A DNA stretch of 64,000 nt, taken from Vibrio sinaloensis DSM 21326. GTDB taxonomy: Bacteria; Pseudomonadota; Gammaproteobacteria; Enterobacterales; Vibrionaceae. The notes below the pieces were generated by a model. That model saw nothing but the letters and a program-made list of their open reading frames with translations, had not been told where the DNA came from and did no database searches. The stretch covers positions 1 through 64,000 of the forward strand of contig NZ_AEVT01000122.1 in assembly GCF_000189275.1 (NCBI RefSeq), in the 5' to 3' direction. This document shows, one piece after another, positions 9,034 through 42,842 of this stretch. Both the position numbers and the translations under genes were made by a program. The first letter of the stretch is position 1. The number at the start of each line of letters is the position of its first letter.

Positions 9034-9898
9034 GATCGGACTCCCTCTCAGTCGGAGTCACGGCCTTACCTCCATATTGAACAAACGGACGCTCATCATC
9101 AGTTAGGATGATCAACTCCCGCGAGTCTTCATCATGGTGTAAGGTGTCGCCACCGAGCGTTAAGTGTCTTAGTACACCGCCAAAGACGCGCTGAAGATTC
9201 TGTTGGGTATAGGTGGTTTCTATAGGGCCAGAGGCAAGTACCGTTTTATTGACCATGATTGTGCGGTCGCAGAATTCAGGTACCGAGCCTAAGTTATGGG
9301 TCGACACCAGCATCACGTGGCCTTCTTCGCGCAATGATTTTAAAAGGTCCATGATTTGTTGTTCCGTCTGTACATCTACCCCAGTGAAAGGTTCATCAAG
9401 TAGAATGACTTTGGCTTGTTGAGCGAGCGCTCTGGCGAGAAACACGCGTTTCTTTTGCCCACCGGAGAGTTCACCAATCTGCCGCTTACGAAACTCCAAC
9501 ATGTTGACCCGCTCTAACGCTTGATCAACGGCAGCAAAATCCGCTTGTTTAGGCTTTCTTAACCACCCCATATGACCATAACGCCCCATCATGACCACTT
9601 CTTCAACCAGTACAGGGAAACTCCAATCTATCTCTTCTGATTGCGGAACATAAGAGACCAGGTTGGTTTTGAGCGCTTTCTTAACGCTTAAGCCCATGAT
9701 GGTGATTTCACCTTGAGACATAGGTACAAAGCCCATAATCGCTTTGAAAAGGGTCGACTTGCCTGCTCCATTTACGCCAACGAGGGCTGTCACAGAGCCT
9801 GGAGGAACGGAGAAATTCGCGTCATGCAGCGCCGTGTACCCATTACGATACGTAACGGTCACATCTTTGGCTGAAATACCTAACTGATCATCGTTCAT
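9026..9898 (-). CDS. sitB: Manganese/iron ABC transporter ATPase (SitB/YfeB-like)
   Basis: The 290-residue cytoplasmic ATPase has Walker A at about residues 39-46 (GVNGAGKST), the signature LSGGQKKR near 143-150, Walker B (VILLDEPF) near 162-169 and the switch His in VSTHNL. It powers metal import by the SitCD permeases. The last 50 residues form a polar tail, common in YfeB/SitB. It lies 77 bases after the binding-protein gene; that gap may hold processing or attenuating structure but I see no strong hairpin. Confidence 0.9.
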
Positions 9899-9975
9899 TA
9901 CAGGTGCTTAGCTCCAAAAAATCTGATTGAGGATTGAGACCTAAAGCGGCCCTTGCGAGGCGCCAGTTTCGCGTC

Positions 9976-10875
9976 TTAATTAACAGAGTTAAGACCTTTC
10001 GCGACCGTTTCAGACGTCACCGTCAGTAGATCAAGGTAGGTCGGTACTGGACCATTGGCCGTAGAGAGAGAGTCGACAAACAACTCGCCACCGTATTGTG
10101 CGCCCGTTTCTCTTGCAACTTGTTTGGCGGGAGATGTATTGACCGTAGACTCACAGAACACAACCGGAATCTGGTTCTTTTTCACCCCATCAATCACCGA
10201 GCGAACCTGCTGAGGTGTGCCCACTTGGTCAGCGTTCATTGGCCATAAGTACAACTCTTTTAGGCCAAAATCTTTAGCTAGATAGCTAAACGCACCTTCA
10301 CAAGTCACTAACCAGCGTTCCGAATCAGGAATACTAGCGATCTGCTCTTTTAGCGGTTCAATCGTCGCGCGTAGTTTAGCCTTGTACTTGGCTGCATTTT
10401 TAACGTAAGTCGCGGCGTTGTCAGGATCGTGCTCAGCAAACGCCTCAACAATATTGTCGATATAGATAAGCGCATTATCTAAACCCATCCAAGCATGAGG
10501 GTTGGGCTTACCTTGATAAGATCCTGAAGCAATTGGAATGGGATTGATCCCTTTGGTTAGCGTAACCGCAGGCACCTCTTTCAAATTAGACAAGAACTGC
10601 TCAAACCATAGCTCTAAGTTCATACCATTCCAAAGGATCAGATCGGCATCAGACGCACGGACAATATCTTGAGGCGTCGGCTCGTAGCCATGGATTTCGG
10701 CACCAGGCTTGGTAACTGAGACAACTTCAGCAGCATCACCAGCCACATTCGCAGCCATATCGGCAAGTACAGTAAAGGTCGTGACCACTTTCATTTTGTC
10801 TTCATCAGCGCTCGCGAAAGGTGAAATGGCCAATAATAAAGCGGAAGCAGCGGCAGCGAATTTGAACTTGGTCAT
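9976..10875 (-). CDS. sitA: Periplasmic Mn/Fe-binding protein (SitA/YfeA-like)
   Basis: The 299-residue protein has a signal peptide (residues 1-23, ending PFASA) and belongs to the cluster A-I (TroA-type) metal-binding proteins. Likely metal ligands are visible: His in PGAEIHGYEPTPQD (about residue 62), His in KPNPHAWMG (about 127), an acidic residue in TCEGAFSYL (about 193) and Asp near FVDSLS (about 268). There is no long His/Asp-rich loop, which argues against a ZnuA-type zinc protein. First gene of the operon, with AAGGAG before its ATG; the promoter region carries Fur/Mur-like boxes. Confidence 0.88.
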   Translation of the reverse strand: MTKFKFAAAASALLLAISPFASADEDKMKVVTTFTVLADMAANVAGDAAEVVSVTKPGAEIHGYEPTPQDIVRASDADLILWNGMNLELWFEQFLSNLKEVPAVTLTKGINPIPIASGSYQGKPNPHAWMGLDNALIYIDNIVEAFAEHDPDNAATYVKNAAKYKAKLRATIEPLKEQIASIPDSERWLVTCEGAFSYLAKDFGLKELYLWPMNADQVGTPQQVRSVIDGVKKNQIPVVFCESTVNTSPAKQVARETGAQYGGELFVDSLSTANGPVPTYLDLLTVTSETVAKGLNSVN

Positions 10876-10940
10876 ATCTGGCTCCTTGATAATTAAAAAA
10901 TACTTTCATACATCAAGAGGCCACAATTAACACACCCTCT

Positions 10941-10986
10941 TGAGATTAATTCTCATTTGCAAATACGTTAATGCAAACAATTCTCA
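10941..10986. promoter_or_regulatory. Two Fur/Mur-box-like operators between sitA and its regulator
   Basis: Two 15-bp sites share the right half ATTCTCA: TGAGATTAATTCTCA at 10941-10955 and TGCAAACAATTCTCA at 10972-10986. Against the Fur 7-1-7 pattern (TGATAAT-N-ATTATCA) they match 11 and 10 of 14 positions. TTTGCA (10956-10961) and TGCAAA (10972-10977) also form an inverted repeat. The sites lie 66-111 bases before sitA and 36-81 before the regulator gene, so one bound repressor could control both directions. Confidence 0.65.
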
Positions 10987-11021
10987 TTTACAACATTTAA
11001 ATAGCGAAAACTAGATGATTT

Positions 11022-11477
11022 ATGGCGATTGAACAAAAAGTAACAAGCGAAGACCATGCTGGTGTTATTGAAGAGTTGGAAGAAACACTGAGATCTGGTG
11101 GTGTAAGAATCACACAACAGCGAATGGCCATTCTGGCAGCACTTGCGGCGTCAGACGACCACCCTACTGTCGAAACCTTACATAGGCGAGCTAACAAGCT
11201 TAATGCCAATGTCTCTTTGGCTACCGTTTATAGAACAGTCACGGTTCTGGTTGAGCGTGGTGCAATCATTCGCAACGAGTTTGACGGCTCTAAGTCCAGC
11301 TATGAACTGGCGAATAAGCCTCACCACGATCACCTTATCGATGTCGATACAGGTGAAGTCATAGAGTTCTGCTCTGAGGAAATAGAAGCGATTCAGGAAG
11401 CCATCGCGAAACAACTGGGCTACGAAATCGTCGCGCATCGTCTTGAGCTGTATGTCAGAAAACATGGTCAGAGTTAG
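11022..11477 (+). CDS. Fur-family metalloregulator, Mur/Fur-like
   Basis: The 151-residue protein has a winged-helix N-terminal half (GGVRITQQRMAILAALAAS and NVSLATVYRTVTVLVERGAI) and the Fur dimerisation/metal domain (KPHHDHLIDVDTGEVIEF). In the place where E. coli Fur has CxxC after DHLI, this protein has DVDT, so the structural zinc cysteines are missing, as in alpha-proteobacterial Fur/Mur. Divergent from sitABCD, it is the likely Mn/Fe-dependent repressor of that operon. Zur is excluded by the lack of cysteine pairs and by a separate zur at 36275. Whether it senses Mn or Fe cannot be told from sequence. Confidence 0.8.
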   Translation: MAIEQKVTSEDHAGVIEELEETLRSGGVRITQQRMAILAALAASDDHPTVETLHRRANKLNANVSLATVYRTVTVLVERGAIIRNEFDGSKSSYELANKPHHDHLIDVDTGEVIEFCSEEIEAIQEAIAKQLGYEIVAHRLELYVRKHGQS

Positions 11478-11765: not shown

Positions 11766-12788
11766 ATGAACAAAACAATCGACAACAGTACGCAACCCAT
11801 CATCTTAACGGGCGACCGAGCAACGGGGCCGCTGCATCTAGGTCATTATGTTGGCTCTCTGGCACAGCGAGTGGCGCTACAAGATACTCATGATCAAACC
11901 ATACTTGTCGCCGATATGCAGGGCCTAACCGACAATGCGCACACACCAGAAAAAGTCTCGTCTAATATTCTCAATGTGGTTGCCGATTACCTGGCTGTAG
12001 GGATCTCAGTGGAAAAAACGACCATTTGTCTCCAGTCACAGTTGCCCGCGCTTGCTGAGCTCACCATGTATTACAGTAATCTGGTCACAATCAGCCGTTT
12101 AGAGCGCAACCCAACAGTCAAAAACGAGATACAGAGTAAAGGCTTTGAACGCTCGATTCCTGCAGGCTTTCTCACTTATCCAATATCGCAAGCCGCTGAT
12201 ATTACTGGCTTCAACGCGAGTTTAGTCCCTGTCGGGGACGACCAGCTTCCCATGCTTGAGCAAACCAATGAGATCGTGCGTAAAATCAATACGCTTGCAG
12301 GGCACAATGTGCTGACAGAGTGCCGTCCACTATTGAGTCAATCTCCTCGATTACCCAGTACCGATGGCAAAAATAAAATGTCCAAATCGATGGGTAATGC
12401 AATCAACCTTGGCGCAACACCCGATGAGATTTCAGCGGCCGTAAAATCTATGTACACCGACCCCAACCACTTGCGAGTACAAGATCCGGGGAACGTTGAA
12501 GGTAATGTGGTCTTTACTTATCTCGATGCATTCCACCCAGACAGACACTACGTTGAGCAATTAAAGGGCCACTATCGTGCTGGCGGCTTGGGCGATGGTA
12601 AAACCAAGCAAATTCTCGAAGAATGCTTACAAGAGTTACTCCGACCGATTAGAGAGAAACGCGCGCAATTTCTGAATGATAAAGCACAATTATTGCGCAT
12701 ACTGGCAGAAGGTAACGAGATTTCAAGACAAAAAACAGGGAAAGTTTTGCACGATGTTAAGCAAGTCTTTGGACTGAACTTATTCTGA
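11766..12788 (+). CDS. trpS2: Tryptophanyl-tRNA synthetase, second (auxiliary) type
   Basis: The 340-residue class I synthetase has the HIGH-like motif PLHLGHYVG (about residues 20-28) and the KMSKS loop KNKMSKSMGN (about 202-211). It charges tRNA-Trp in the cytoplasm. The sequence (ILTGDRATG at the N-terminus, YYSNLVTISRLERNPTVK in the middle) differs strongly from the usual Vibrio TrpRS, which reads VLSGVQPSGELSIGNY, and belongs to the other TrpRS branch found as second copy in several bacteria. Some members of that branch resist the TrpRS inhibitor indolmycin. GGAG seven bases before the ATG; the gene is controlled by the Trp leader just upstream. Confidence 0.85.
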   Translation: MNKTIDNSTQPIILTGDRATGPLHLGHYVGSLAQRVALQDTHDQTILVADMQGLTDNAHTPEKVSSNILNVVADYLAVGISVEKTTICLQSQLPALAELTMYYSNLVTISRLERNPTVKNEIQSKGFERSIPAGFLTYPISQAADITGFNASLVPVGDDQLPMLEQTNEIVRKINTLAGHNVLTECRPLLSQSPRLPSTDGKNKMSKSMGNAINLGATPDEISAAVKSMYTDPNHLRVQDPGNVEGNVVFTYLDAFHPDRHYVEQLKGHYRAGGLGDGKTKQILEECLQELLRPIREKRAQFLNDKAQLLRILAEGNEISRQKTGKVLHDVKQVFGLNLF

Positions 12789-25244: not shown

Positions 25245-26603
25245 TCAGTGCTGCTCTGTATCCCTACTGTAGACCAAGGTTAACGCTTCTTTATCTTGCT
25301 CATTCGCAAAGACGAAGGTGCCGCCACCTTTACTCTTCGCTTTATACATCGCTTGATCTGCGCAGATCAACAGCTCCTCGTGACTCGTTCCGGAAAGTGG
25401 AAACGTGGCAATCCCGATACTGACACCTACCTGATAAGCGGATTGGTTGACGACAATGGGCCGCTCAACTTCTCGAATCATTTGCTCCGCTTTCTTGGAC
25501 ACTGAGCCGCTATCGATTAACAAGTCTAGGCATACCACAAACTCATCCCCCCCATAACGACCTACAATATCCGTTTTACGAGTACATCGACTCAGCCGAC
25601 TCGCGACGGTATGAAGCACTTCGTCTCCCACCTCGTGCCCGTGGGTATCATTAATGATTTTAAACTTATCCAAATCGATAAACAGTACTGCGACAGAAAG
25701 GCCGCTGCGTTGCGCTTTGCCGACGGCGGTTTTAAGACTCGATTCAAGAGAACGGCGATTTAGCAAGGAGGTTAAAGGATCACGCTCGGATAAATACTCT
25801 AGCGTTTTCTTCTGCTTCTCTAGCTCTTGGGTGTGTTTGTTGATCTCACTTTCCAACTGCGATTTGGTGTACACGCTATGTTCGAGCTCTTCACTCATGG
25901 AGTTAAAGGTTTTTCCCAGCAAACTGAACTCTGCATCCAGATTTTCACACTGAATACGGTGATCAAATCGACGCTGACGAATGTTTTCTATTGCCCGAGA
26001 AATGGCATTGGAACCTCTTTGGAACTTTTTAAGCAGCATAAAAGCGATAAAACTCATGCAGATAGAAAACAGAGTTAACACAACCGTCATTTGGCGCATG
26101 GTATTTTCTATTTTTGCATTGGTTTGCTGCAGTTCACGTTCATGCTGGGTTGCCAAATACTCGTACATGTTCTGAATAAGCACATTATATCGAGTCGTCA
26201 GCAATGCCCTGCGCTGGTCTATATGCACTTGCTTCATGTTTTGTTGAGCTTGAGCGTTTTGGAACTGCTTATCTTGCTCGATGAGTTCCGCAAACTGCTT
26301 TTTGACACGTTGAATTTTATTGATTTTTTTACTCGGGATCTGGGATCTTTCTAGGCTCTGCGATAAGAATTTTTTTTGCTCAATTAAACTTTCAAAACTG
26401 CGATCGTCCTTATACTGAAGGTAAAGCCACAGCTGGCCTTGTAATGCCGTCACCTCCGACTGGATATCAATTAATTGTGACTGAGTTTCGATCGCTGATA
26501 CGTGCTGCCGATAGAGACTATGCATAGAGAACGCCGTCGCCAAAGTCATCACTATGCTTGCCGCAAACAAGGTGTACATTTTTAGTGTTAACGAGTGCTT
26601 CAT
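25245..26603 (-). CDS. Diguanylate cyclase with periplasmic sensor (partner of the binding protein at 26600)
   Basis: The 452-residue protein has TM1 at residues 8-25, a periplasmic helical domain (about 30-165), TM2 (about 170-192), a HAMP-like segment (RAIENIRQRRFDH) and a coiled coil. A GGDEF domain from about 275 follows, with the intact active-site loop RYGGDEFVV and FIDLDKFKIINDTHGHEVGD. It should make c-di-GMP. The I-site RxxD may be present as RCTRKTD just before the active site. Its ATG overlaps the stop of the upstream binding-protein gene (ATGA), which argues for a two-protein sensor in which the binding protein controls the cyclase. Confidence 0.88.
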   Translation of the reverse strand: MKHSLTLKMYTLFAASIVMTLATAFSMHSLYRQHVSAIETQSQLIDIQSEVTALQGQLWLYLQYKDDRSFESLIEQKKFLSQSLERSQIPSKKINKIQRVKKQFAELIEQDKQFQNAQAQQNMKQVHIDQRRALLTTRYNVLIQNMYEYLATQHERELQQTNAKIENTMRQMTVVLTLFSICMSFIAFMLLKKFQRGSNAISRAIENIRQRRFDHRIQCENLDAEFSLLGKTFNSMSEELEHSVYTKSQLESEINKHTQELEKQKKTLEYLSERDPLTSLLNRRSLESSLKTAVGKAQRSGLSVAVLFIDLDKFKIINDTHGHEVGDEVLHTVASRLSRCTRKTDIVGRYGGDEFVVCLDLLIDSGSVSKKAEQMIREVERPIVVNQSAYQVGVSIGIATFPLSGTSHEELLICADQAMYKAKSKGGGTFVFANEQDKEALTLVYSRDTEQH

Positions 26604-29218: not shown

Positions 29219-30235
29219 TTAGCTCATTTCCATCACAATTCGGCCTGTGATCTCGCCTTTTTCCATGTCGGCAAAAATGTCGTTAATGTCTTCCAGTTTC
29301 TTGGTCTCCGTAATGGCTTTCACCTTACCTTCAGCCGCGAACTGCAAACACTCTTGTAGATCTTTACGCGTACCGACAATAGAACCAATCACTTTGACGC
29401 CATTGAGAACGGTATCGAAGATAGGAATAGGCATTTCCTCTGGAGGAAGACCAACAAGCACGCAGGCACCACCACGACGAATAGAACGATAAGCCTCTTC
29501 AAATGCTGGCTTAGATACTGCGGTACACACCACACCATGGACACCACCATTGGTGATTTCACCGATACGCTGAGAAGGTTTCTCTTTCATAAAGTCGATA
29601 CAGTGAGTTGCACCCAGCTCTTTCGCTAAAGCTAACTTCTCTTCACCTGTATCAACCGCAATGACATTCATCCCCATCGCAACCGCATACTGAATCGCCA
29701 AGTGCCCCAGTCCACCAGCACCAATAATCGCCACCCACTGACCAGGTTTCACATCGGTCACTTTAAGCGCTTTGTAGGTCGTCACACCAGCACAGAATAG
29801 AGGCGCCGCATCGACATAGTTGAGCGATTCAGGCAACTTAACCACATATTCACCATGCGCTAGACAAAACTCAGCATAACCTCCGTCTACAGAGTAGCCC
29901 GCGTTATGTTGATCTAAGCAAAGCGTTTCTTGCCCTTCTAGGCAGTAATCACAGTGACCACAAGCACTGTATAACCAAGGAACGCCGACTCTGTCACCAA
30001 CTTTGAGGTGTTTGATTTCGCTGCCTACTTCGACAATCTCGCCGACGCCTTCATGGCCGGGGACCAGTGGCATTTTAGGTTTAACAGGCCAATCACCATG
30101 GCAAGCATGTAAATCGGTATGACACACACCACATGCATGGATCTTTACCAATACGTCTCTTGGCTTAATATTCGGAAGTGGGATGTCTTTTATCTCAAGA
30201 GGCCCTTTAAACTCACTGACAACTGCAGCTTTCAT
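29219..30235 (-). CDS. adhP: Zinc-dependent alcohol dehydrogenase AdhP
   Basis: The 338-residue medium-chain dehydrogenase has catalytic-zinc ligands Cys in [11 protein letters not shown] and His-Glu in [10 protein letters not shown], and four structural-zinc cysteines in [17 protein letters not shown]. The NAD-binding [11 protein letters not shown] is near residue 173. It is of the AdhP type (propanol-preferring, NAD-linked), oxidising or forming short alcohols in the cytoplasm. GGAG lies seven bases before the ATG. Each subunit binds two zinc ions. Remarkably, both a Fur box (30257-30271) and a Zur box (30358-30369) lie upstream. Confidence 0.9.
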
Positions 30236-30256
30236 ATCCGTCTCCAACCTTGTAAA

Positions 30257-30271
30257 TGATATTTATTATCA
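30257..30271. promoter_or_regulatory. Fur box before adhP
   Basis: TGATATTTATTATCA matches the 7-1-7 Fur consensus TGATAAT-N-ATTATCA at 13 of 14 positions. It lies 22 bases before the adhP ATG, over the likely transcription start and leader. Confidence 0.75.
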
Positions 30272-30357
30272 TTTGATCGAAAAAGACTTGTCTGTGAGCT
30301 ATTTCATATAAATTTCAACCAAATCCAATTTATTCCATTAATATCAATAGTTTAGTT

Positions 30358-30369
30358 ATGTTATAACAT
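30358..30369. promoter_or_regulatory. Zur box 1, upstream of adhP
   Basis: Perfect palindrome ATGTTATAACAT, core GTTATAACAT at 30360-30369. It lies about 120 bases before adhP and just beyond the end of the CopD-like gene on the same strand, so adhP is the only sensible target. Confidence 0.7.
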
Positions 30370-30393
30370 TTCTAGTAACTTAATCATCACTAA

Positions 30394-30837
30394 CTACATT
30401 AACCAACCTACGCGAAATGAAACGCCAACTAGGACAAACAGAATCGAAAACAAGGTCACTGGAATAATATGTAAAGCCATATCAATTAAGTTGGCTTGAG
30501 AAAGTTTGGGAATGACTCTAAATCTCGCATCCAAAGCAAAAATAAAGGTCAATGCCAACAACGTCAGTTTGACCGCAATACCATGAGCAAGAGGGATCGA
30601 CATGTCAAACCACAAGCTGACGTCCGGCAGCATGCGATAAGCCAACATTAAACCAGTAATAATCTGAATCACAAGCGCGGGCATTCCTACCCGTTCGTAC
30701 ACGGATTCAAACTCTAGCAGCCGGGTCGGGTTGCGCTCACGTAATACTCTTGGTAACACGACAACCGCTAGCACGATGTGTCCCCCAGTCCAAATCGTTG
30801 CCGCAATAAGATGCAGTGATAGAAGGATCCCATACAT
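30394..30837 (-). CDS. CopD-family membrane protein
   Basis: The 147-residue protein has four membrane helices and the CopD-family pattern: a His in LLSLHLIAATIWTGGHIVLA (helix 1), DARFRVIPKL in a loop and a His in DMALHIIPVT (helix 4). The conserved His residues could bind heme or copper. CopD proteins are linked to copper handling, but many stand-alone small members have unknown roles. The gene stands alone on the minus strand between the endopeptidase and adhP. Confidence 0.75.
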   Translation of the reverse strand: MYGILLSLHLIAATIWTGGHIVLAVVVLPRVLRERNPTRLLEFESVYERVGMPALVIQIITGLMLAYRMLPDVSLWFDMSIPLAHGIAVKLTLLALTFIFALDARFRVIPKLSQANLIDMALHIIPVTLFSILFVLVGVSFRVGWLM

Positions 30838-30991
30838 ACGTCCACACTCCTTAATTTACGCTCAAGCGCGAACATCTATAGTGCAGCAATTGTCGTTGCA
30901 ATGATTTGATCTCAGCACGCTAGATTAGAACTATTATTATTCCCATCAATATAACCAAATAAACAGCTCAGCGTAGCGGTTCACCGTCCAT

Positions 30992-32251
30992 CTAGCTTTT
31001 GCCCTCTTTTAACACCTTTTCATCAAATGCATCAACACGAGCTAAAAACGACGCTTTCTCGTCCTTGGATATAGAAGACGCAAGTGGCAGATTGGCTTTC
31101 ATGGGATCGACAGCGCGATTACGCACTAGCACTTCAAAATGTAAGTGAGGGCCAGTAAGACGTCCGGTTGCTCCAGACAGTGCGATTTTTTGCCCCCGAG
31201 TCACATGCTGTCCTTTCTTCACCAAGAACTTGCTCAAGTGCAAATAGCGCGTTGTATAAACGCTGTTGTGCTCAATGACCAGGTACTTGCCAGCATAAGG
31301 ATGATTTCTAACACCAACCACTTTGCCGTCACCAATCGAGTAAATAGGAGCCCCAATCGGCGTGGCGAAATCAGTACCATTATGAGGGGAAATACGCCCA
31401 GTCACTGGATGCCTGCGCTTGGGGTTAAATGCTGAGGTGATTCGACGATATTGCCTATCAATTGGGTATCGACTAAATGCTCTTTCTAAGCTTTGACCAT
31501 GTCTATCGTAAAAGCGGCCATCATCAGCGAGAAAAGCGGCAACTTCGCCCCTTGCTAAATGAAATGAGATGGCTTGAATCTCAGTGTTTCCCGTTGGATG
31601 ATCATCCAGAAACTGCTCTTTAACCATCACATCGAACCGATCTCCCGCACGTAATGAGCGCTTAAAATCAACCTTGTCACGTAACACGCGAGTAATGTTA
31701 CCTATCTGATTTGAAGATAACCCCAGTTTATGCGCCGACAATGAGAAACTGCCATTGATCTCACCTGAGTAGAGCGTGTCACGCCATACTCCTTCTTCTT
31801 CGATCCATTGATAGGCGTATTCATCGTCAGACGTTTTACTATAGACCGCCTTTTCGACCAAACTGACGTGATACGTGAGGCTCAATAGCTGGTGGTTGCC
31901 ATCTATTTCAAACTCCAGATAGTCACCTGGTTTGATGGTATCCAACTGTAAAGTCGCCTGATCGGCTACCAAGACTTGCAGCAACTGCTCATAGGGCAAC
32001 TTCCAAGCTGAAAAAATATCGCTGAGTGTATCCCCCACTTTGACAAAATAGTGAATCTTAGTGGATGCGTTGGCTAGCTTAACCTTGTCTGCTGGCTCTA
32101 AACCAAGTGTGGTAGATGCATGTTTACCTTGATAGGGAGTAACAGTAATTTGAGTGGTGTTAGCGGCTTTATCTTTGGGTATGGAAAGATAAGCCGCACA
32201 CGAGAAAGCACCAACCGCGACGGCAATTAGGATCAATCTGAAGTTTTTCAT
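30992..32251 (-). CDS. M23 peptidoglycan DD-endopeptidase, ShyB-like
   Basis: The protein (about 419 residues) has an N-terminal membrane anchor (residues 3-24), a LysM/OapA-like segment (VKVGDTLSDIFSAW) and a C-terminal LytM/M23 domain. Zinc ligands are visible as His in SPHNGTDFATP (HxxxD) and as HLHFEV near the end. It cuts cross-links in periplasmic murein so that the wall can grow. In V. cholerae the paralog ShyB is Zur-repressed; here a Zur box lies 32-45 bases before the ATG, so this is the likely ortholog. Divergent from the aspartoacylase-like gene. Confidence 0.85.
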   Translation of the reverse strand: MKNFRLILIAVAVGAFSCAAYLSIPKDKAANTTQITVTPYQGKHASTTLGLEPADKVKLANASTKIHYFVKVGDTLSDIFSAWKLPYEQLLQVLVADQATLQLDTIKPGDYLEFEIDGNHQLLSLTYHVSLVEKAVYSKTSDDEYAYQWIEEEGVWRDTLYSGEINGSFSLSAHKLGLSSNQIGNITRVLRDKVDFKRSLRAGDRFDVMVKEQFLDDHPTGNTEIQAISFHLARGEVAAFLADDGRFYDRHGQSLERAFSRYPIDRQYRRITSAFNPKRRHPVTGRISPHNGTDFATPIGAPIYSIGDGKVVGVRNHPYAGKYLVIEHNSVYTTRYLHLSKFLVKKGQHVTRGQKIALSGATGRLTGPHLHFEVLVRNRAVDPMKANLPLASSISKDEKASFLARVDAFDEKVLKEGKS

Positions 32252-32282
32252 GAAAACGTAATGACACAATAAAATTTAATGT

Positions 32283-32296
32283 TATGTTATAACATA
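32283..32296. promoter_or_regulatory. Zur box 2, between the endopeptidase and the aspartoacylase-like gene
   Basis: The perfect 14-bp palindrome TATGTTATAACATA lies in the 115-base divergent gap. It is 32 bases from the endopeptidase ATG and 71 from that of the aspartoacylase-like gene, so one site may control both. Confidence 0.8.
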
Positions 32297-32366
32297 CCCA
32301 TCGTTACTTAAATCAAGAAAAGGTCAAAATAGGATTGGGGTAAACCACCCGCCTCAGGAATGCATA

Positions 32367-33230
32367 ATGGAAAACATCACTAATATCTTGCTGGTCTCCG
32401 GAACCCACGGCAATGAGCTCTCTGGTTTGTATCTACAAAAGTTGATTAAAGACGGAAGATATGACGCGAATCGCAGTACTTTCTCTACCTCTCTTTTAAC
32501 AGGCAACCCTGAAGCCGTTCAACAGCAATGTCGATTCTTAGATATGGATTTGAATAGACAGTTCAGCACGTCGCGCCAAGAAGCAACCAGTAAGGAAGCC
32601 AAGCGATCTCAGGCGCTTATCACTCAGTATGCAGATAATGAAAAGCAGTTGATCATAGATTTGCATAACACCACCAGTAACATGGGGGCGACGCTGATCT
32701 TACTGAGTGAATCGCCCTTTTATACAAAGATGGGGGCCTATGTAAAACAGCGCATGCCTGACGCAAACATTCTATTCGAAACGCGAACATCGTGGCCGGA
32801 ACAACCCTATTTATGCACTATGGGTCAATATGGCGTGATGATTGAGGTCGGCGCTCAAGCTCATGGCTCGTTAAAATCAGAGACGCTCGATCTGATGAAA
32901 AGGATGACAACGGCGGTGCTTGATTACATCGAAAAGTCGAATCTTGGTCAGCTAGATCAACTAAACGCTTACGAAGCCTATTTCTATCTCGAAGAGGTTG
33001 TTGTACCACTGGATCAAGATGGTCAACGACTCGCGCTTGTTCACCCTACGGTATGTGGCCAAGACTTTCAGCCTGTGTATCCAGGAGAGCCATTATTGGC
33101 AACCTTCATGGGCAGCGATATCCATTGGCAAGGCGAGCATGAAATCTATCCTCACTTCATCAACGAAGCCGCCTATTGCGCCAGTAACATCGCAATGGCA
33201 CTGGCAGAAAAGAAACATATTGAGGTGTAA
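32367..33230 (+). CDS. Aspartoacylase-family zinc hydrolase
   Basis: The 287-residue protein is of the AstE/aspartoacylase family (M14-like). Zinc ligands His and Glu lie in SGTHGNELSG (about residues 12-21) and His in IIDLHNTTSNMG (about 95-106). The arginine motif is DLNRQFS, and the catalytic Glu is in MIEVGAQAHG. The family removes acyl groups from N-acyl amino acids such as N-acetyl-aspartate. Its place in the Zur-box cluster suggests a role under zinc limitation, perhaps release of amino acid or a ligand; the substrate is unknown. Confidence 0.8.
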   Translation: MENITNILLVSGTHGNELSGLYLQKLIKDGRYDANRSTFSTSLLTGNPEAVQQQCRFLDMDLNRQFSTSRQEATSKEAKRSQALITQYADNEKQLIIDLHNTTSNMGATLILLSESPFYTKMGAYVKQRMPDANILFETRTSWPEQPYLCTMGQYGVMIEVGAQAHGSLKSETLDLMKRMTTAVLDYIEKSNLGQLDQLNAYEAYFYLEEVVVPLDQDGQRLALVHPTVCGQDFQPVYPGEPLLATFMGSDIHWQGEHEIYPHFINEAAYCASNIAMALAEKKHIEV

Positions 33231-33233
33231 AGA

Positions 33234-33267
33234 AAAGCCTGAGGTCCACATTCACGCCTCAGGCTTT
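33234..33267. terminator. Bidirectional terminator
   Basis: AAAGCCTGAGG (33234-33244) and CCTCAGGCTTT (33257-33267) form a perfect 11-bp stem between two convergent genes. The A-rich and T-rich flanks suit both directions. Confidence 0.85.
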
Positions 33268-33270
33268 ACT

Positions 33271-34281
33271 CTAGCCTTGTAAACAATCAAGCAGTTTACT
33301 TTCTAGATGCTCTTCTAACTCGGTTGCAATCAACTCTATTCGGCTCTCAACACACTCGTCCAACTCAACCTTCGTCAAACCATCCTTGGTAAGGTTGTAA
33401 CCAAATATGCCATTTGAGGTGATGAAAACTGCTTTCATTCGTTCCACATTGAGCGTGGAAAATACGGCCTCAAGCTGAGTTTGCTCGAACACTTTATTCG
33501 CCGCAAACCGCCACCCAACACTTAGGAAACCTTCGCCTTTATTCGTTGCTTTCAGCACGCCACTTTCTGGCATTGGCAGTTCTGAGGCCATTGGTTTCTC
33601 TTGCCCATGATGATGATGGTGATGGTGGTGACCGAGCGCTGCATCAATGTCGGCCGTATCTTCAAACTCTTCAAAAGGGACGTTGCCATGCTGTGCGAAA
33701 ATAACTCGTGTATTTGGTCGCCCTACTTTCTCTACATATGCATCAAGCGACGCCGCTTCATCTGCACAATACAAATCACACTTATGACCTACCACGGTAT
33801 CCGCAATCATGATCTGCTGATTGAAGGTTTCATGCTCAGTATATCTGGCATCACTGAGATTACGCGCATCCACCAAGGTGATATTTTTTTGCAGAGAGAG
33901 CAGCTCTCGATAGTAGTCAGTAGAAAGTACTTGAAGCACTTCTTTAGGATGACCAAGCCCTGTAGGCTCGATCAAAAGACGATCCGGCTTGGCCTCTGAC
34001 AGCAGTTGGTTTAAGGCAATTTGCATCGGCAGTCCCGCAGCGCAGCACATACATCCACCCGGAACTTCACGAATGAAAACTTGCTGCTGTGTCGATTGTT
34101 GACCGCTAAACAAGCTACCGTCTACGCCGATTTCACCAAATTCGTTCACTAATACTGCCCAGCGCTCATTGCTAGGTTTGTTCTTCATTAAGTTGAGGAT
34201 CACCGAGGTTTTGCCGACACCAAGAAAACCAGTGATGATATTGGTGGGTACCCCTTTAATTGGTACGTTATCAGAGTTCAT
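33271..34281 (-). CDS. COG0523 GTPase metallochaperone with His8 stretch
   Basis: The 336-residue protein has the P-loop GFLGVGKTS (residues 18-26), the COG0523 metal motif GGCMCC (CxCC, about 75-80) and a GTP-specificity segment near GHKCDLY. An eight-His run around residue 220 joins the GTPase and CobW C-terminal domains and probably holds Zn(II). COG0523 members under Zur control (ZagA/ZigA/YeiR type) deliver zinc to key enzymes when zinc is scarce. It overlaps the gamma-carbonic-anhydrase gene by 11 bases and is last in the operon zur-pyrC2-yrdA2-COG0523, which supports this role. Confidence 0.9.
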   Translation of the reverse strand: MNSDNVPIKGVPTNIITGFLGVGKTSVILNLMKNKPSNERWAVLVNEFGEIGVDGSLFSGQQSTQQQVFIREVPGGCMCCAAGLPMQIALNQLLSEAKPDRLLIEPTGLGHPKEVLQVLSTDYYRELLSLQKNITLVDARNLSDARYTEHETFNQQIMIADTVVGHKCDLYCADEAASLDAYVEKVGRPNTRVIFAQHGNVPFEEFEDTADIDAALGHHHHHHHHGQEKPMASELPMPESGVLKATNKGEGFLSVGWRFAANKVFEQTQLEAVFSTLNVERMKAVFITSNGIFGYNLTKDGLTKVELDECVESRIELIATELEEHLESKLLDCLQG

Positions 34282-34831
34282 TAGCTATTCTCCTATAGCC
34301 TTGTACAAGCTCGTGGTTAGCAGACACAACAGACTCTGAAAACGCTGAATATTCAGGTGGGACAGTCGAAATACTGCTCAAATCAAAGTCGGAGCCGATG
34401 TTGGTCATCGGTGGAACGTGAAACTGATTAGGCAGATCTCGACCATCAACCACACAGTTATGGCGTATTACGCATCCTTGTCCAATTTGCGCATTGAACA
34501 CCACGGAGTTAAAGCCGATGAATACATCATCACATACTTCGCAAGGCCCGTGGATAATGGAACGGTGCGCTATCGAAGAGCGTTCTCCAACGATAACTGA
34601 CGCTCCCGCTTTTGAATGGATAACCACTCCATCCTGGATGTTGGTATCGCGCTTGATGACGATCGCTTCCATCTCACCTTGTTGATTAACTTCGTCAGCT
34701 CGAATTACGGCATAAGGGCCAATAAACACGTTGTCTTCAATGATGACTTTACCGCAAATGATCGCAGTCGGGTCGATAAATGCGGTCTGTGAAACAACAG
34801 GCATGTCGCCACTTGGGTTTCTTCTTAACAT
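34271..34831 (-). CDS. Gamma-carbonic-anhydrase-like hexapeptide protein (Zur-linked YrdA paralog)
   Basis: The 186-residue protein folds as a left-handed beta-helix of hexapeptide repeats (AIICGKVIIEDNVFIGPYAVI). Metal ligands typical of the gamma-CA/YrdA group are visible: His in GVVIHSKAG and two His in SIAHRSIIHGP. A helical C-terminus closes the trimer. Such paralogs are often linked to COG0523 and Zur and may replace a zinc-dependent carbonic anhydrase or act as an iron/zinc-flexible version; that is an inference from context. It starts 30 bases after the dihydroorotase stop. Confidence 0.8.
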   Translation of the reverse strand: MLRRNPSGDMPVVSQTAFIDPTAIICGKVIIEDNVFIGPYAVIRADEVNQQGEMEAIVIKRDTNIQDGVVIHSKAGASVIVGERSSIAHRSIIHGPCEVCDDVFIGFNSVVFNAQIGQGCVIRHNCVVDGRDLPNQFHVPPMTNIGSDFDLSSISTVPPEYSAFSESVVSANHELVQGYRRIANEL

Positions 34832-34861
34832 CTTCTTTCTCTATCTCATTTTGTCGGCGGC

Positions 34862-36196
34862 TTATCGAGCGAAAGACAATCGCATTGCGTGTTTTGCCGA
34901 CTTCGTGACTTTGCCATTGTCATAGACTGCTTCACCGTTTACCCAGGTCGTTTGGATCTTGGCCGAAAATTCATGACCCGCAAATGGTGACCAACCACAG
35001 TGATACAAACTGTTTTCATTTGTGACTAAAGTTGGCGTTTTGATATCCACCAAGACCAAATCGGCATAGTAGCCTTCGCGGATGAAACCACGATCTTTAA
35101 TCGCATAGCGAATAGAAGGATTATGCGCCGTTTTCTCAACAACTTGTGGAAGCGTTAAGTGCCCCAGTTGAACATGATCCAACATGGTGAGTAAGGCGTG
35201 TTGTACCAATGGTAATCCGGCTGGTGCTTGATCATAGTCCACTTGTTTTTCTTGCCACGTGTGAGGGGCATGGTCAGTGGCGATGATGTCTATTTTTCCA
35301 CTATGAAGCGCCTGCAATAAGGCATCACGATCGCTTGGGTATTTGATTGCAGGATTACACTTAATCTGATTGCCTAATCGCGCATAATCTTGGTTGCTAA
35401 ACCACAGATGGTGAACACACGCTTCAGCGGTAATGTGCTTGTTTTCAATATCACCCGACGCAAAAAGTGACAGCTCTTTTTCCGTCGTTATGTGCAAAAC
35501 ATGCAGCTGACTTCCGTGCTTTTTCGCCAACTCGACCGCGAATGCGGATGACGCAAAACAGGCGTTGTCATCCCGCAGTACAGGATGATCTTCAATGGTC
35601 AATGTCGACTTTTCTTCGAGAAGGCGTTGACGATTTTGGGCAATCACAGGCCCACTCTCGCAATGGGTTACAATCAAAACAGGAGAGTCTCGAAATATAG
35701 CGTCCAGCGCTTGCGGATGCTCTACCAGTAAATCTCCTGTCGATGCCCCCATAAAGACTTTAACCCCACAATGTGCAGTCGGGTCGAGACGCTGGATCTC
35801 TTCTAAATTGTCCTCTGTTGCACCAAGGTAAAAGGAATAGTTCGCAACCGAGCTATCAGCCGCAATGGCGAACTTTCGCTCTAACGCTTCAATCGTGGTT
35901 GTCGCAGGATTAACGTTTGGCATTTCCATGTAACTGGTAATGCCACCCGCGACAGCCGCTTTTGATTCAGTGGCAATCGACCCCTTATGAGTTAAACCCG
36001 GCTCTCTAAAGTGCACCTGATCATCAATCATTCCTGGCAACAAGTATCGTCCATGTGCATCGATAACCTTATCGTTTGCACTGGCCTGTATTTCACTGGC
36101 AATGTGTTCGATACGCTGATCGACAATCCGTACATCACAAACGGTAATTCGCCCTTCATTAACAACTTGGGCGTTTTTAATCAGTGTTGAAGACAT
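34862..36196 (-). CDS. Second dihydroorotase (Zur-linked PyrC paralog)
   Basis: The protein (about 444 residues) is a cyclic amidohydrolase of dihydroorotase type (PGMIDDQVHFREPGLTHKG, residues 55-73; EMPNVNP; VHHLWF; IIATDHAPHTW). It closes carbamoyl-aspartate to dihydroorotate in pyrimidine synthesis. The usual first HxH pair is QVH here, so one ligand of the binuclear centre is replaced by Gln, as also found in other proteins of this branch. Under zinc limitation it could replace the housekeeping PyrC. The ATG at 36196 follows AGGAG by 12 bases. Follows zur by 78 bases on the same strand, probably one operon. Confidence 0.85.
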   Translation of the reverse strand: MSSTLIKNAQVVNEGRITVCDVRIVDQRIEHIASEIQASANDKVIDAHGRYLLPGMIDDQVHFREPGLTHKGSIATESKAAVAGGITSYMEMPNVNPATTTIEALERKFAIAADSSVANYSFYLGATEDNLEEIQRLDPTAHCGVKVFMGASTGDLLVEHPQALDAIFRDSPVLIVTHCESGPVIAQNRQRLLEEKSTLTIEDHPVLRDDNACFASSAFAVELAKKHGSQLHVLHITTEKELSLFASGDIENKHITAEACVHHLWFSNQDYARLGNQIKCNPAIKYPSDRDALLQALHSGKIDIIATDHAPHTWQEKQVDYDQAPAGLPLVQHALLTMLDHVQLGHLTLPQVVEKTAHNPSIRYAIKDRGFIREGYYADLVLVDIKTPTLVTNENSLYHCGWSPFAGHEFSAKIQTTWVNGEAVYDNGKVTKSAKHAMRLSFAR

Positions 36197-36274
36197 AGCG
36201 GTACGCAACTCCTTTTAAGGTAAAAGCAAAAACTGGGAAATCGAATCGAACTGACAGGCAAGCGTTCAAACGCG

Positions 36275-36736
36275 TTAACAAGAAGATTGTGCACACTCAT
36301 CACAGATACAGTGAATCTCAAGCTGTGGGTTATCAACATTAAAACCTAGCTCACGAGCGTTGGCTTTGAGGTCTTTAATTAACGCCGGAGCAATTGTCTG
36401 CTCACTGATTTTGTTGCATTTGGAACAGATTAAGAACTGAGGCACACCATGTTCGTGCTCACAAAGGATGTGTGAGCACACAATGTAGTTATTGGAGACT
36501 TTGAGTTTATGGGCAAGGTGTTCGCCTTCGAGAAAATCAAGAATTCGGTACACAGACATAGCTTGAATATCTTGAGAAAAGTGGACTTTGCAATAATCGA
36601 CTAATTCGTATGCAGACAGCGCTTTATCTGCGTGTAATAGCGCTTTTAGCACCAGTTTTCGTTGCGGTGTAAGCTGTTTTCCTTTCGATCGACACAGCTG
36701 TTCAACATGCCGAATTACGCCTTCTATATCACTCAA
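36275..36736 (-). CDS. zur: Zinc uptake regulator Zur
   Basis: The 153-residue Fur-family protein has the helix-turn-helix QLTPQRKLVLKALLHADKAL and SVYRILDFLEGEHLAHKL. A Zur-type metal domain follows: CSHILCEHEHGVPQFLIC, then CSKC, and CICDEC at the C-terminus. The cysteine pairs fix structural zinc; the Cys/His cluster senses Zn(II). The start is TTG at 36734-36736, six bases after AAGGA. A Zur box lies 35-46 bases upstream, so it represses itself and the genes after it (dihydroorotase, gamma-CA, COG0523). Confidence 0.92.
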   Translation of the reverse strand: MSDIEGVIRHVEQLCRSKGKQLTPQRKLVLKALLHADKALSAYELVDYCKVHFSQDIQAMSVYRILDFLEGEHLAHKLKVSNNYIVCSHILCEHEHGVPQFLICSKCNKISEQTIAPALIKDLKANARELGFNVDNPQLEIHCICDECAQSSC

Positions 36737-36770
36737 ACCTCATCCTTGTCATCACAGATTCTTAGTTGTT

Positions 36771-36782
36771 ACGTTATAACAT
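36771..36782. promoter_or_regulatory. Zur box 3, zur operon promoter
   Basis: ACGTTATAACAT, with core GTTATAACAT at 36773-36782 and the right flank ATC, lies just upstream of zur. One base differs from the perfect palindrome. Confidence 0.75.
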
Positions 36783-36833
36783 ATCTTGTGATAAATAAAA
36801 ATATAGGGCCAAACGTATCGAGTAAGCACAAAG

Positions 36834-37781
36834 TCATTTGGAGTGATAAGTACTTACCTTGTTACGCCCGGTGTGCTTAGATTTGTACATGGCTTTATCT
36901 GAGCGCTCGAGTATATCGAGTTTCGACGTATCCGACGGGCTGAAACTGCATACACCGACACTGATCGTCACTTTAATCTCTTGATCATTATCTCTGTACG
37001 GCGTTTGTTCGACCGATTTCCTTAACCTTTCCCCAATCGCCAAAGCTTTGTCTGAAGAGACGTTAGGCAGAATTACTGCAAACTCTTCGCCACCTAAACG
37101 CCCGATAATTTCAACCGATCTTAATTGCTTTGAACATAGGTCCGCGACATGCTTGAGCACTTTATCTCCCGTAACATGCCCAAGCGTGTCATTCCAATGC
37201 TTGAAGCGGTCTAAATCGATAATCAATACTGAGGTGTGCAATCCATTGAGCTTAAACTGATTAAAGTAGGAAGTAAGCTTAGACAAAAATGTACGACGGT
37301 TGACGAGGCCCGTCAGTTCATCTCTCTCGAGCAGTTGTTTCACTTGGCGCTCTTTCTCTACGGTTCGAGAAATATCTCGTGTCACCCATAGAACGGAGTC
37401 GAAATCCGAACCGTTGAGCGCTACCGGGCTGATCTTTGCTTCATACCAAATGGTTTTGTCGAGTGATGTAATATCAAAACCGGGATGCATATCTGAAGGC
37501 TCTACCGAGTGGACTAGCGTTTCTGTCTGGCCTAGTGCAATTGCCTGTTCAATGTGGAACAGAAGCTTTCTCGCCAAAGGGCGATCAACGATCTGTTTTA
37601 GATTCATCCCTTTCAAGCGTTGGTAATTAAAGTCGGGAGACTCCCTATCTTGCCCTTCATATACTTCGATGCAGGTTCCATCAATGGTAAAGACGAAAAT
37701 GTTATCAGGTAAGGCATCAAGTACGGCTTTAGCTTTTAACAGCTCCTTCTGTTCAACCGTTGTCTGCAAATTTTCTGGCAT
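36834..37781 (-). CDS. PAS-GGDEF diguanylate cyclase
   Basis: The 315-residue soluble protein has a PAS domain (residues 15-140, ALPDNIFVFTIDGTCIEVYEG through VLWVTRDIS) and a GGDEF domain (about 150-312) with LIIDLDRFKHWNDTLGHVTGD and the active site RLGGEEFAV. It should make c-di-GMP in response to a cytosolic signal sensed by PAS. There are no membrane segments. A very strong ribosome site (AAGGAGGAGAGT) precedes the ATG. A Zur-type box lies 105-116 bases upstream, which may put it under zinc control. Confidence 0.88.
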   Translation of the reverse strand: MPENLQTTVEQKELLKAKAVLDALPDNIFVFTIDGTCIEVYEGQDRESPDFNYQRLKGMNLKQIVDRPLARKLLFHIEQAIALGQTETLVHSVEPSDMHPGFDITSLDKTIWYEAKISPVALNGSDFDSVLWVTRDISRTVEKERQVKQLLERDELTGLVNRRTFLSKLTSYFNQFKLNGLHTSVLIIDLDRFKHWNDTLGHVTGDKVLKHVADLCSKQLRSVEIIGRLGGEEFAVILPNVSSDKALAIGERLRKSVEQTPYRDNDQEIKVTISVGVCSFSPSDTSKLDILERSDKAMYKSKHTGRNKVSTYHSK

Positions 37782-38180
37782 ACTCTCCTCCTTAATGCCT
37801 CACTCCAAAGTATAAGCAATCTTCTGAGATCCATACGCTTCCGTTGCAATGAATCCGCTGAAATTTAATGGCACACGATACGCCAACGTTATAACATTGC
37901 AATCACACGCCATAAATCAACGATGAATTTAATCATTTCATCGCTAAAACGTCTCTCTTTTTATACGATCCACTAAATTAGTTGTTCATTGAATAATCAA
38001 TCCATTTCCTCTCCGCAAACGTAAAGTCAGCCACCATTCGAATTATTTGAATTAGCCGTTCAAACTCCCCCAATGTTCACCTATGGCAGACAAACATAAA
38101 CTGGAGACCACTCAAGCCGGTTAGCTCCAAAGCCTTGCCGTATCATTGGCATTTTCAGTTGTCCTAAAGGAGAAGAGATT
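37782..38180. promoter_or_regulatory. Divergent region with Zur box 4 (37886-37897)
   Basis: The 399-base gap between the diguanylate cyclase (leftward) and pirin (rightward) contains ACGTTATAACAT at 37886-37897, the same 12-mer as at the zur promoter. It is about 105 bases from the cyclase start and 283 from the pirin start, so the cyclase is the likelier target. The rest is AT-rich and has no reading frame worth calling. Confidence 0.6.
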
Positions 38181-40628: not shown

Positions 40629-40847
40629 TTCAGTGACAGAGCGGCTATCCAAAGCGCAAAATATACGGCGCTTTATCGATAAGCTCAATCAATGAGATAG
40701 CGATTCACTCAATCTTCACTAAATATTCATCTAATCCATTTATAACCGCTCGATAGCGTTACGTTTTAATCGAATTGAAACATTCAGCGAATACCCTGAC
40801 CGCTTAACATCCATTTGTTCGATCATTACAGATTACCTATCGCTTTC

Positions 40848-42842
40848 ATGAAACGTAAGTTCCTATTCACTTCTATTCTGGCTTTACTTGTCATCGCATT
40901 TACGACTGCACTGGTGACTCAATCAACACACCTGCTGATCAAGAAATCTCCGCTGGCAGAAGCGGCCGCTGAGATAAAAGTAAATGGAACCCTCGCCTAC
41001 CTTTGGTTTGATGAAATCATGTCAGGTGACACCGCCCAATCGATTCAAGAAGTCTGGTACTACTTAGAAATCGCCGATTGGCACATTGTGGCGCTACTGG
41101 AAGGCGGTGAAAGCATTATGGGTAATTACCAACCCGTGGATGATCCAGAGTTAAGAAAAAGACTGGTCACGCTTCGTGAAACGCTCGCTGAGTTTCGGAT
41201 GCGCGCAGAAGACACCTATCAGCACTTGCAATCAGACCGCAGCAACACTTTTAATTCGGTTCGCCGAGATGAGCAGTTTCTTGAGTTTGCAAGTAAAGCC
41301 GATGATATTCAAAGATTTATCAAAGCAAGCTATGAGTCAGGTATCGACAGTTATACACGTACCAGCATTACTCTCATTCTGGCGGTGATCGTGATCGCCG
41401 TCTCCTCGATTCGTATCCAGCACAAGCACGAGAAAAGTCGAGACTCTCTGCTGAAATCACTCACAGAAGCCAAGAGCGCGATTGAAGAGAAAAATACCCA
41501 GTTGCACAACCGGGCCTATTTTGATCCTCTCACTGGGCTGCCTAATCGCTCATTGTTTCTTGATCGCCTTAATCAGTCTATTCTCAATGCAGAGCGTTCA
41601 GGAAAGTCATTTGCGCTGCTGTTTATCGACTTAGACCATTTTAAAGACGTCAACGATATGCACGGCCACGAAGTAGGCGATCAACTCCTAAAACAAGTCT
41701 CTAAACGGATCAAACAATCGATTCGCGTCACTGACTTATCAGCAAGATTTAGCGGCGATGAGTTTGTGGTCGTGTTAGATCACATACAGGATGTCTCCGT
41801 TGCCATCAATGTCGCCAACAGGATTGCCACTAAACTCATTAATGCCTTGTCGCGCCCATTTCAAATCGGTAACCAAAGCGTTTTGATTTCAGCCAGCATT
41901 GGCGTTTCAATTTACCCAGAAGACAGCGCGACACAAGACACCTTGATTCGCTTTGCCGATAATGCGATGTACCACGCCAAATCAAGCGGCAAGAATAATT
42001 TCCAGTTCTACTCGAAAGAGCTAAATCGCATCGCCATGTCGCAAAAAGAGATGGAACGCGCTCTGGATGAAGCGATAAACGGCGATCAATTTGAACTGCA
42101 CTACCTCCCAAAATGGCATCTAAAAACAGAACAAGTGGAAGGAGTGGAAGCACTGGTTCGATGGCAGCACCCAATCAAAGGTCTGCTTTATCCGAACGAT
42201 TTTGTGCCTATTGCCGAATCTACGGGCCAAATTCGCTTGCTCGATCTTTTAGTGACCGAAAAGGCGTTAAATCAGCACCATGACTGGTTGTCGCGTGGAA
42301 TAGATCTGGGTATTTTGGGAATTAACATTTCGGCGAGAAGCCTAAAACACCCCGACTTTTTTGACCAACTCAAGGCAATCATTCTCAGGTCAGGTGTCCC
42401 AACCCAAAAAATAGAAATTGAAATCACCGAGACCGTCATGGTCGAAAATATAGAGTATGCGCAGGTGCTCTTCGCAGAACTTAAAGAGATTGGCGTTCGT
42501 GTCGCTTTGGATGACTTTGGAACTGGGTTTTCTTCACTCTCTTATCTTAAAGATTTCGACTTCCAAACACTAAAAATCGATCGCAGTTTTGTGGTGGATT
42601 ATACAACCAACAACACTTCGTTAGTTCTATTGAAAAATATCGTGCAGTTGGGCAACGAGTTGGGTGTCACCGTTGTGGCAGAGGGTGTAGAGACCGCCCA
42701 GCAACAACAAGATCTGTTTGAAATGGGCTGCACCACCGGACAAGGCTTTTATCTCACCAAGCCTCAACCAGCTAACGAGTTGGTCAACGCCCTGTTTAAC
42801 CAACTCAATAGCAATGTGGTCTCTTTAGGCCGCCTAAACTAA
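40848..42842 (+). CDS. Membrane GGDEF-EAL c-di-GMP enzyme
   Basis: The protein (about 664 residues) has TM1 at residues 5-22, a periplasmic helical sensor part (to about 175), TM2 (about 180-198), GGDEF (about 230-390) and EAL (about 400-650). The cyclase motif is RFSGDEFVV, a conservative change from GGDEF. The EAL part keeps EALVRW, the Asn in LGINISARS, the Glu in EIEITETV, DDFGTGFSSLSYLK and VVAEGVE, so it probably has phosphodiesterase activity. Net output cannot be told. I start at ATG 40848; a TTG 11 codons earlier is open. Divergent from PstS. Confidence 0.88.
   Translation: MKRKFLFTSILALLVIAFTTALVTQSTHLLIKKSPLAEAAAEIKVNGTLAYLWFDEIMSGDTAQSIQEVWYYLEIADWHIVALLEGGESIMGNYQPVDDPELRKRLVTLRETLAEFRMRAEDTYQHLQSDRSNTFNSVRRDEQFLEFASKADDIQRFIKASYESGIDSYTRTSITLILAVIVIAVSSIRIQHKHEKSRDSLLKSLTEAKSAIEEKNTQLHNRAYFDPLTGLPNRSLFLDRLNQSILNAERSGKSFALLFIDLDHFKDVNDMHGHEVGDQLLKQVSKRIKQSIRVTDLSARFSGDEFVVVLDHIQDVSVAINVANRIATKLINALSRPFQIGNQSVLISASIGVSIYPEDSATQDTLIRFADNAMYHAKSSGKNNFQFYSKELNRIAMSQKEMERALDEAINGDQFELHYLPKWHLKTEQVEGVEALVRWQHPIKGLLYPNDFVPIAESTGQIRLLDLLVTEKALNQHHDWLSRGIDLGILGINISARSLKHPDFFDQLKAIILRSGVPTQKIEIEITETVMVENIEYAQVLFAELKEIGVRVALDDFGTGFSSLSYLKDFDFQTLKIDRSFVVDYTTNNTSLVLLKNIVQLGNELGVTVVAEGVETAQQQQDLFEMGCTTGQGFYLTKPQPANELVNALFNQLNSNVVSLGRLN

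Follow-up and report, generated by a model that had tools for sequence, protein, structure and literature searches.

A predicted zinc-starvation island carrying a second, box-controlled Zur in Vibrio sinaloensis

We analysed a 64,000-nt stretch of the Vibrio sinaloensis DSM 21326 genome (NZ_AEVT01000122.1, positions 1-64,000, hereafter the window; the genome has 4.9 Mb in 134 contigs) and found a gene group that we read, at a probability of roughly 75%, as an accessory zinc-starvation island of marine Vibrio that includes a second Zur repressor, itself under a predicted Zur box. The genes concerned are the operon zur2-pyrC2-gammaCA-COG0523 (successive spacings of 78 bp and 30 bp, then an 11-bp overlap) and the neighbouring divergent pair shyB and aspA:

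36275..36736, minus strand: zur2, a divergent second regulator of the Zur family (starting at TTG; FUR PF01475 41.1 bits, cut-off 23.1)
34862..36196, minus strand: pyrC2, dihydroorotase paralog (NCBIfam PRK09236 706.7 bits, cut-off 535, read from 36208)
34271..34831, minus strand: gamma-carbonic anhydrase-like (gamma-CA) hexapeptide protein (Hexapep above cut-off; gamma-carbonic anhydrase structures to E 2e-26)
33271..34281, minus strand: GTPase of the CobW/YciC type (COG0523) that contains a His-rich run (PF02492 147 bits)
32367..33230, plus strand: aspA, aspartoacylase-like enzyme (NCBIfam PRK02259 307 bits, cut-off 180; aspartoacylase structures E 1e-44)
30992..32251, minus strand: shyB, ShyB-like M23 LysM endopeptidase (in the PDB closest to 2gu1, 'Zinc peptidase', at 538 bits, with ShyA at 386 bits)

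A preliminary description of this region had placed four Zur-type boxes here on the basis of a 10-mer, GTTATAACAT. The 10-mer is indeed found at 30360-30369, 32286-32295, 36773-36782 and 37888-37897, each time between genes and with no further copy in the window (6 strand-matches over the four places, against 0.16 expected from shuffles). It had also been said to lie within a perfect or near palindrome, and this proved correct, with a perfect ATGTTATAACAT at two of the sites and ACGTTATAACAT, with one mismatch, at the other two. From their sequences, the window sites are better described by a 17-bp palindrome, ATGTTATANTATAACAT, which we take to be the Zur consensus, offset from the centre of the 12-mer and with one half altered. 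Since they can be read in this way, the 12-mer appears to be a by-product of overlap and is probably not the real symmetry unit. Aligned in one direction, the boxes are mostly TTGTTATGTTATAACATTTC or near it.

Sites were scored with a matrix trained on 14 sites of this genome, including those at adhP, between shyB and aspA, and at zur2; the site before the diguanylate cyclase gene lay outside the training set. Apart from the four sites, no window position scored above 11.8, and the maximum over 40 dinucleotide shuffles was 15.5. The four sites are as follows:

30352..30370: score 22.2, Zur-type box that lies 117 bp before the adhP ATG
32278..32296: score 27.0, Zur-type box that separates the divergent genes shyB and aspA
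36765..36783: score 22.7, Zur-type box that lies 29 bp before the start of zur2
37885..37903: score 7.6, half-site standing alone in front of the diguanylate cyclase gene and not counted as a Zur box

Three of the four thus show the AT-rich inverted repeat TGTTATNNTATAACA typical of known Zur targets, and the fourth, at 7.6 against a shuffle maximum of 15.5, does not resemble a Vibrionaceae Zur box, so that three of the boxes originally proposed stand and one falls. The bare 10-mer is not specific, because it occurs at 13 places in the genome (21 strand-matches) against 10 matches for a reversed control pattern; at two of them (L011 and L016) it does not extend into a box. The longer TGTTATGTTATAACAT has seven exact places in the genome and two more with one mismatch, the latter being the adhP and zur2 sites of the window; at up to one mismatch, three of its nine places are therefore the adhP, shyB-aspA and zur2 sites.

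Elsewhere in the genome, a box of what we call type A, TGTTATGTTATAACA, precedes an L31 gene whose product is without cysteines, a COG0523 gene, the DUF1007/DUF1826 genes and a gene for a family-5 solute-binding protein. The canonical form precedes znuCB, ribA (two boxes), a short gene followed by zrgA and a short gene followed by a HupE-like gene, and a further site lies in the gap between flavodoxin-like and LprI-like genes. A truncated znuA stands at the end of another contig, presumably adjacent to znuCB. The preliminary description had proposed looking for the palindrome at znuABC and the ribosomal paralogs L31/L36; znuCB and an L31 gene each have an upstream box of this class. In Vibrio cholerae, the expression of verA is Zur-dependent with a predicted Zur site TGTTATGTTATAACA (PMC8248653), and binding of Zur has been found at the shyB promoter (PMC6381278). 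Because boxes of the same class precede known Zur targets here, and given the V. cholerae data on verA and shyB, there is good reason to regard the adhP, shyB-aspA and zur2 sites as predicted Zur boxes of the Vibrionaceae type.

As judged from its sequence, the window regulator is a second, divergent Zur that keeps the zinc ligands and DNA contacts and forms a clade of its own. The genome has four Fur-family matches: one on contig C51, one at 11022-11477 of the window, the canonical Zur on contig C133, and zur2, whose product is 35% identical to the canonical Zur. Its best NCBIfam match is Zur (NF008646) at 85 bits against a cut-off of 167, and we have therefore filed it as a Zur-like paralog rather than an equivalog. 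The adjacent regulator, previously taken as zur, hence belongs to the Zur family as proposed, and is not the canonical member. The structural CxxC...CxxC and the regulatory site H77/C88/H96/E111 are all present in the window protein, with residue roles that we take to be those of Zur. In an alignment of 47 rows of the Zur2 class, the positions of E. coli Zur Y45, R65, H77, C88 and E111 and the four cysteines are kept in 47/47 and H96 in 45/47 (the canonical-Zur column at H96 is apparently misaligned). A tree of these 47 rows and 16 canonical ones, made after dropping 16 of 81 Zur rows (13 that were duplicates, two that were fragments of L115 and one that repeated this genome's own Zur), splits the classes by a single branch with support 97/92; its bootstrap is unsettled, long branches meet there, and the placement of the V. 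sinaloensis Zur2 is not resolved. Zinc-dependent binding of Zur2 to the boxes is a prediction. The other Fur-family gene of the window (11022-11477) was dropped as a candidate regulator of the island, as it groups with Fur, away from Zur, on a long branch.

Across 247 genomes of the family, 241 had some Zur match and 63 a match of the Zur2 class (at least 129 bits, a boundary set by eye, the next match having 90 bits). Two Zur matches, the second counted whatever its class, were present in 57 of these 63. A search with canonical Zur in 22 genomes gave one close and one distant match in all nine Vibrionaceae. Among these nine, the canonical Zur is nearest to that of L098, V. atypicus (92%; V. 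harveyi 67%) and Zur2 to that of V. harveyi (76%; V. atypicus 62%), and from this contrast in identity alone horizontal exchange of the island is possible. A foreign base composition was not found: GC is 0.43-0.47 over 30001-38000, within the window range of 0.41-0.48.

The remaining six of the 247 genomes have a single Zur match, of the Zur2 class and 44-48% identical (G122, G128, G176, G186, G001 and G203). No zinc gene stands beside the single Zur2-class gene at the loci read from the first five of these genomes (L166, L167, L169, L170 and L171, respectively), except at L171, where a ZnuA-like gene is two genes from zur2 and the Zur2 frame is apparently broken.

We then compared zur2 neighbourhoods at 45 named loci, 31 from Vibrionaceae/Vibrionales and 14 from other gammaproteobacteria, found by a contig scan with short-peptide patterns that is no census. 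Matches by tblastn were dropped below 50% of query length in the box-distance set, and below 40% length or 45% identity in the neighbour set. A box scoring at least 15 lies upstream of zur2 at all 31 Vibrionaceae loci, within 26-53 bp at 22 and at 1.8-2.3 kb at nine. Four of the nine far-box loci were read: at L080, L087 and L099 the box separates znuA from znuCB and zur2 follows, with DUF1826 intervening at L087 and L099 (znuA, ATPase and DUF1826 of L087 assigned by Pfam), and at L076 it precedes a COG0523-DUF1826-zur2 run. The 31 loci include a COG0523 relative in 27 cases, pyrC2 in 22 and gamma-CA in 20, all three together with zur2 in 17; aspA is found in 11 (with a box in 11/11) and shyB in 4 (with a box in 3/4), and the shyB-aspA arrangement with its box recurs in L078, L079 and L098. 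At 45% identity, none of the 31 loci showed a relative of adhP or of the diguanylate cyclase gene. A COG0523 relative is also present at 10 of the 14 non-Vibrio loci. Among eight of these read by eye, a ZrgA-like gene directly precedes zur2 in five (the family confirmed by Pfam at L101) and a MerC-like gene directly follows it in five.

The number of exact type A boxes also differs with the presence of Zur2. The 46 genus genomes that have both Zurs (46/46 positive) average 3.76, against 1.37 in 92 without Zur2 (75/92 positive; p 4e-16), two 1-Mb genomes having been left out and the 92 including G132, in which Zur gave no match; five Zur2-only genomes, kept separate, have counts of 0, 1, 0, 1 and 1. 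In a subset of 83 of 88 shared genomes (after removal of two of 1 Mb and three with Zur2 only), type A boxes number 3.95 in the 22 with Zur2 against 1.39 in the 61 without (p 4e-9), and the canonical form 5.41 against 4.20 (p 0.02). Thus, in counts that ignore kinship, the type A box associates with Zur2 more strongly than the canonical form does, and a quantitative preference of Zur2 for it is possible. We rejected the idea that type A is an operator of Zur2 only, as it is present in Zur2-less genus genomes and before V. cholerae verA. As a separate observation, Zur-type boxes stand upstream of two 5'-nucleotidase-family genes (L067 2642-4357 and L069 2745-4601, about 120 and 280 bp away); we know of no 5'-nucleotidase among Zur targets.

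The box type and the gene content together support a predicted zinc regulon of shyB, aspA and zur2-pyrC2-gammaCA-COG0523, and the grouping of shyB, COG0523, PyrC2 and gamma-CA as zinc-starvation genes in the preliminary description is consistent with them. In PyrC2, Gln replaces the first His of HxH and the later His, His and Asp are kept (alignments read by eye); another PyrC, of the dimeric type, is encoded on contig C36 (TIGR00856 above cut-off). For the gamma-CA-like protein every NCBIfam match is below its own cut-off, as are the CobW and ZigA matches of the COG0523 GTPase and, slightly, the LysM_OapA match of the shyB product. Besides the ShyB-like protein, the genome encodes two more long relatives of it, 52% and 34% identical. 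V. cholerae ShyB is active in EDTA, and shyB with a Zur box was reported in 2019 from 30 non-cholerae Vibrio species (PMC6381278). A promoter-like match at 32261-32288 (plus strand) overlaps the shyB-aspA box and carries no weight, because the scan found fewer sites than shuffles did (7 against 15.8).

The island genes are probably switched on at zinc depletion. In zinc-replete cells, zinc-loaded Zur on the boxes would block shyB, aspA and the zur2 operon, as repression in V. cholerae suggests, and these genes would be derepressed as zinc falls. If they behave like their relatives, the wall endopeptidase might tolerate low zinc, the dihydroorotase and carbonic anhydrase might work with other metals, and the COG0523 GTPase would hand zinc to client proteins. 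Zur2, made mainly in starvation, would bind the same class of box and give an early shut-off on zinc return or a second threshold; we give this predicted role as feedback or second-threshold repressor slightly less than an even chance. Its extension to many Vibrionaceae, a two-Zur circuit with a standing Zur on the core regulon and a starvation-opened Zur2 on the TGTTATGTTATAACA boxes of an accessory regulon for a second threshold or fast shut-off, is offered tentatively and is rather doubtful.

Several observations weigh against the island as we read it. A COG0523 relative is lacking at 4 of the 31 Vibrionaceae loci, pyrC2 at 9 and gamma-CA at 11 (some loci end at contig ends). At the 14 non-Vibrio loci the 200 bp nearest zur2 gave no box in the matrix search; at a greater upstream distance there is one at L102 (22.6) and weak ones at L106 (13.6) and L112 (13.3). 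An in-frame stop interrupts the matched stretch in 13 of the 63 Zur2-class matches, of which 12 keep open frames of at least 150 aa and G001 has 136 aa. The box counts take no account of kinship or genome size, count overlapping registers twice and include the boxes that the island itself adds, and since kinship is not corrected for, the p values are too small. Moreover, Zur2 is not needed for type A boxes, because 75/92 Zur2-less genomes and V. cholerae verA have one. This last point favours an ordinary accessory regulon in which all regulation falls to the canonical Zur, with Zur2 carried along as a passenger or as a redundant copy that has no role of its own, as does the absence of Zur2-class proteins from 184 of the 247 family genomes and the naming of one zur, vc0378, in V. 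cholerae (PMC8248653, excerpts). The near-invariance of the Zur2 ligands and DNA contacts over 47 rows from several families and its retention in zinc operons argue for selection on Zur2, however, and we consider the passenger explanation rather unlikely. A further alternative is that Zur2 senses another metal or signal, or acts as an anti-repressor through mixed dimers with Zur, opening the regulon further in starvation. Its identity of only 35% to its own canonical Zur and its 85 bits against the NCBIfam Zur cut-off of 167 would fit such a role, but the conservation of the E. coli Zur regulatory-site residues (their roles presumed as above) would not, and this alternative seems to us quite improbable.

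The preliminary description had extended the zinc regulon to both flanking genes:

29219..30235, minus strand: adhP-like alcohol dehydrogenase of a zinc-dependent family (NCBIfam AdhP 411.7 bits, cut-off 344)
36834..37781, minus strand: GGDEF diguanylate cyclase (profile search; best other match 39% identical in 117 genus genomes)

That all these genes form one regulon is supported for shyB, aspA and the zur2 operon; that it takes in adhP and the diguanylate cyclase as well we regard as unlikely. For adhP, the box scores 22.2 as a site of the training set. At E<=1e-120 adhP is found in 6 of 118 genus genomes, this one included, and four of the other five orthologs are without a box at score 8, G257 having a degenerate one (10.7) at the same distance. 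Between the Zur box and adhP lies a Fur-like box, TGATAATAAATATCA (region 30236-30275), with one mismatch to TGATAATNATTATCA, which we take to be the Fur box consensus; such a box precedes adhP in three of four upstream regions read (this genome, G257 and G136; absent from G050), raising the separate possibility of an iron link for this alcohol dehydrogenase. An adhP gene is listed in a review table of Neisseria meningitidis zur-mutant data (PMC6103462). Membership of adhP in the zinc regulon is therefore uncertain. The diguanylate cyclase was rejected as a Zur target, as its site is background-like (7.6) and close orthologs are lacking (matches at E<=1e-60 in 7 of 117 other genus genomes, 36-39% identical, with up to 19 candidates scored per genome), and it probably lies outside the regulon. 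GGDEF-type motifs are present in three genes within 18 kb (25245-26603, 36834-37781 and 40815-42842, the first and third by eye).

Near the other Fur-family gene of the window, positions 7271-11477 include genes of an ABC transporter, among them one for a ZnuA-family binding protein (9976-10875, PF01297) that is divergent from the 11022-11477 gene. The latter lacks CxxC pairs and lies with Fur in the tree, and by eye the locus is of the Mn/Fe sit type with a Mur-like regulator; a tryptophanyl-tRNA synthetase-like gene (11766-12788, by eye) directly follows the Mur-like gene.

Side-by-side clustering with the regulator, thought unusual in the preliminary description, has been known since 2009, when Haas et al. 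described COG0523/Zur clusters with PyrC, Cam and other paralogs (PMC2770081). The island resembles these clusters in having COG0523, a PyrC paralog and a gamma-CA paralog under Zur control, here predicted, some of the clusters also having zur, and the genomes listed for the 2009 paralog alignments include Vibrio alginolyticus 12G01; the island differs in its second Zur beside the canonical one, and in shyB and the aspartoacylase, none of which the excerpts of that paper mention. With the V. cholerae Zur regulon this genome shares the box, and the genes in common are shyB, znuABC, the zrg genes, ribA, an L31 paralog and those of an ABC transporter locus; there, however, zur is vc0378 and shyB a single gene in VSP-II, whereas here shyB and aspA adjoin the operon of the second Zur (PMC6381278, PMC8248653). 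Autoregulated zur genes in operons under their own box, for example with znuABC, are known from S. coelicolor, Pseudomonads and P. denitrificans, but that zur is the Zur of the species, and here the canonical Zur lies elsewhere in the genome (PMC6103462). Among the best 10-25 matches listed per search of the open-access literature, as far as the excerpts go, none describes a second, separate Zur with a box of its own; one reports two Zur motifs, not two Zurs (PMC5387054).

The literature found, in the excerpts available, treats the zinc-starvation response as governed by one Zur per cell. If part of the marine Vibrio has a pair, of which one is produced chiefly in starvation, zur-deletion experiments in them would miss part of the control, and the shut-off of the response on zinc return would become directly testable. 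The island would link wall remodelling, and possibly metal-swapped enzymes, to the zinc switch.

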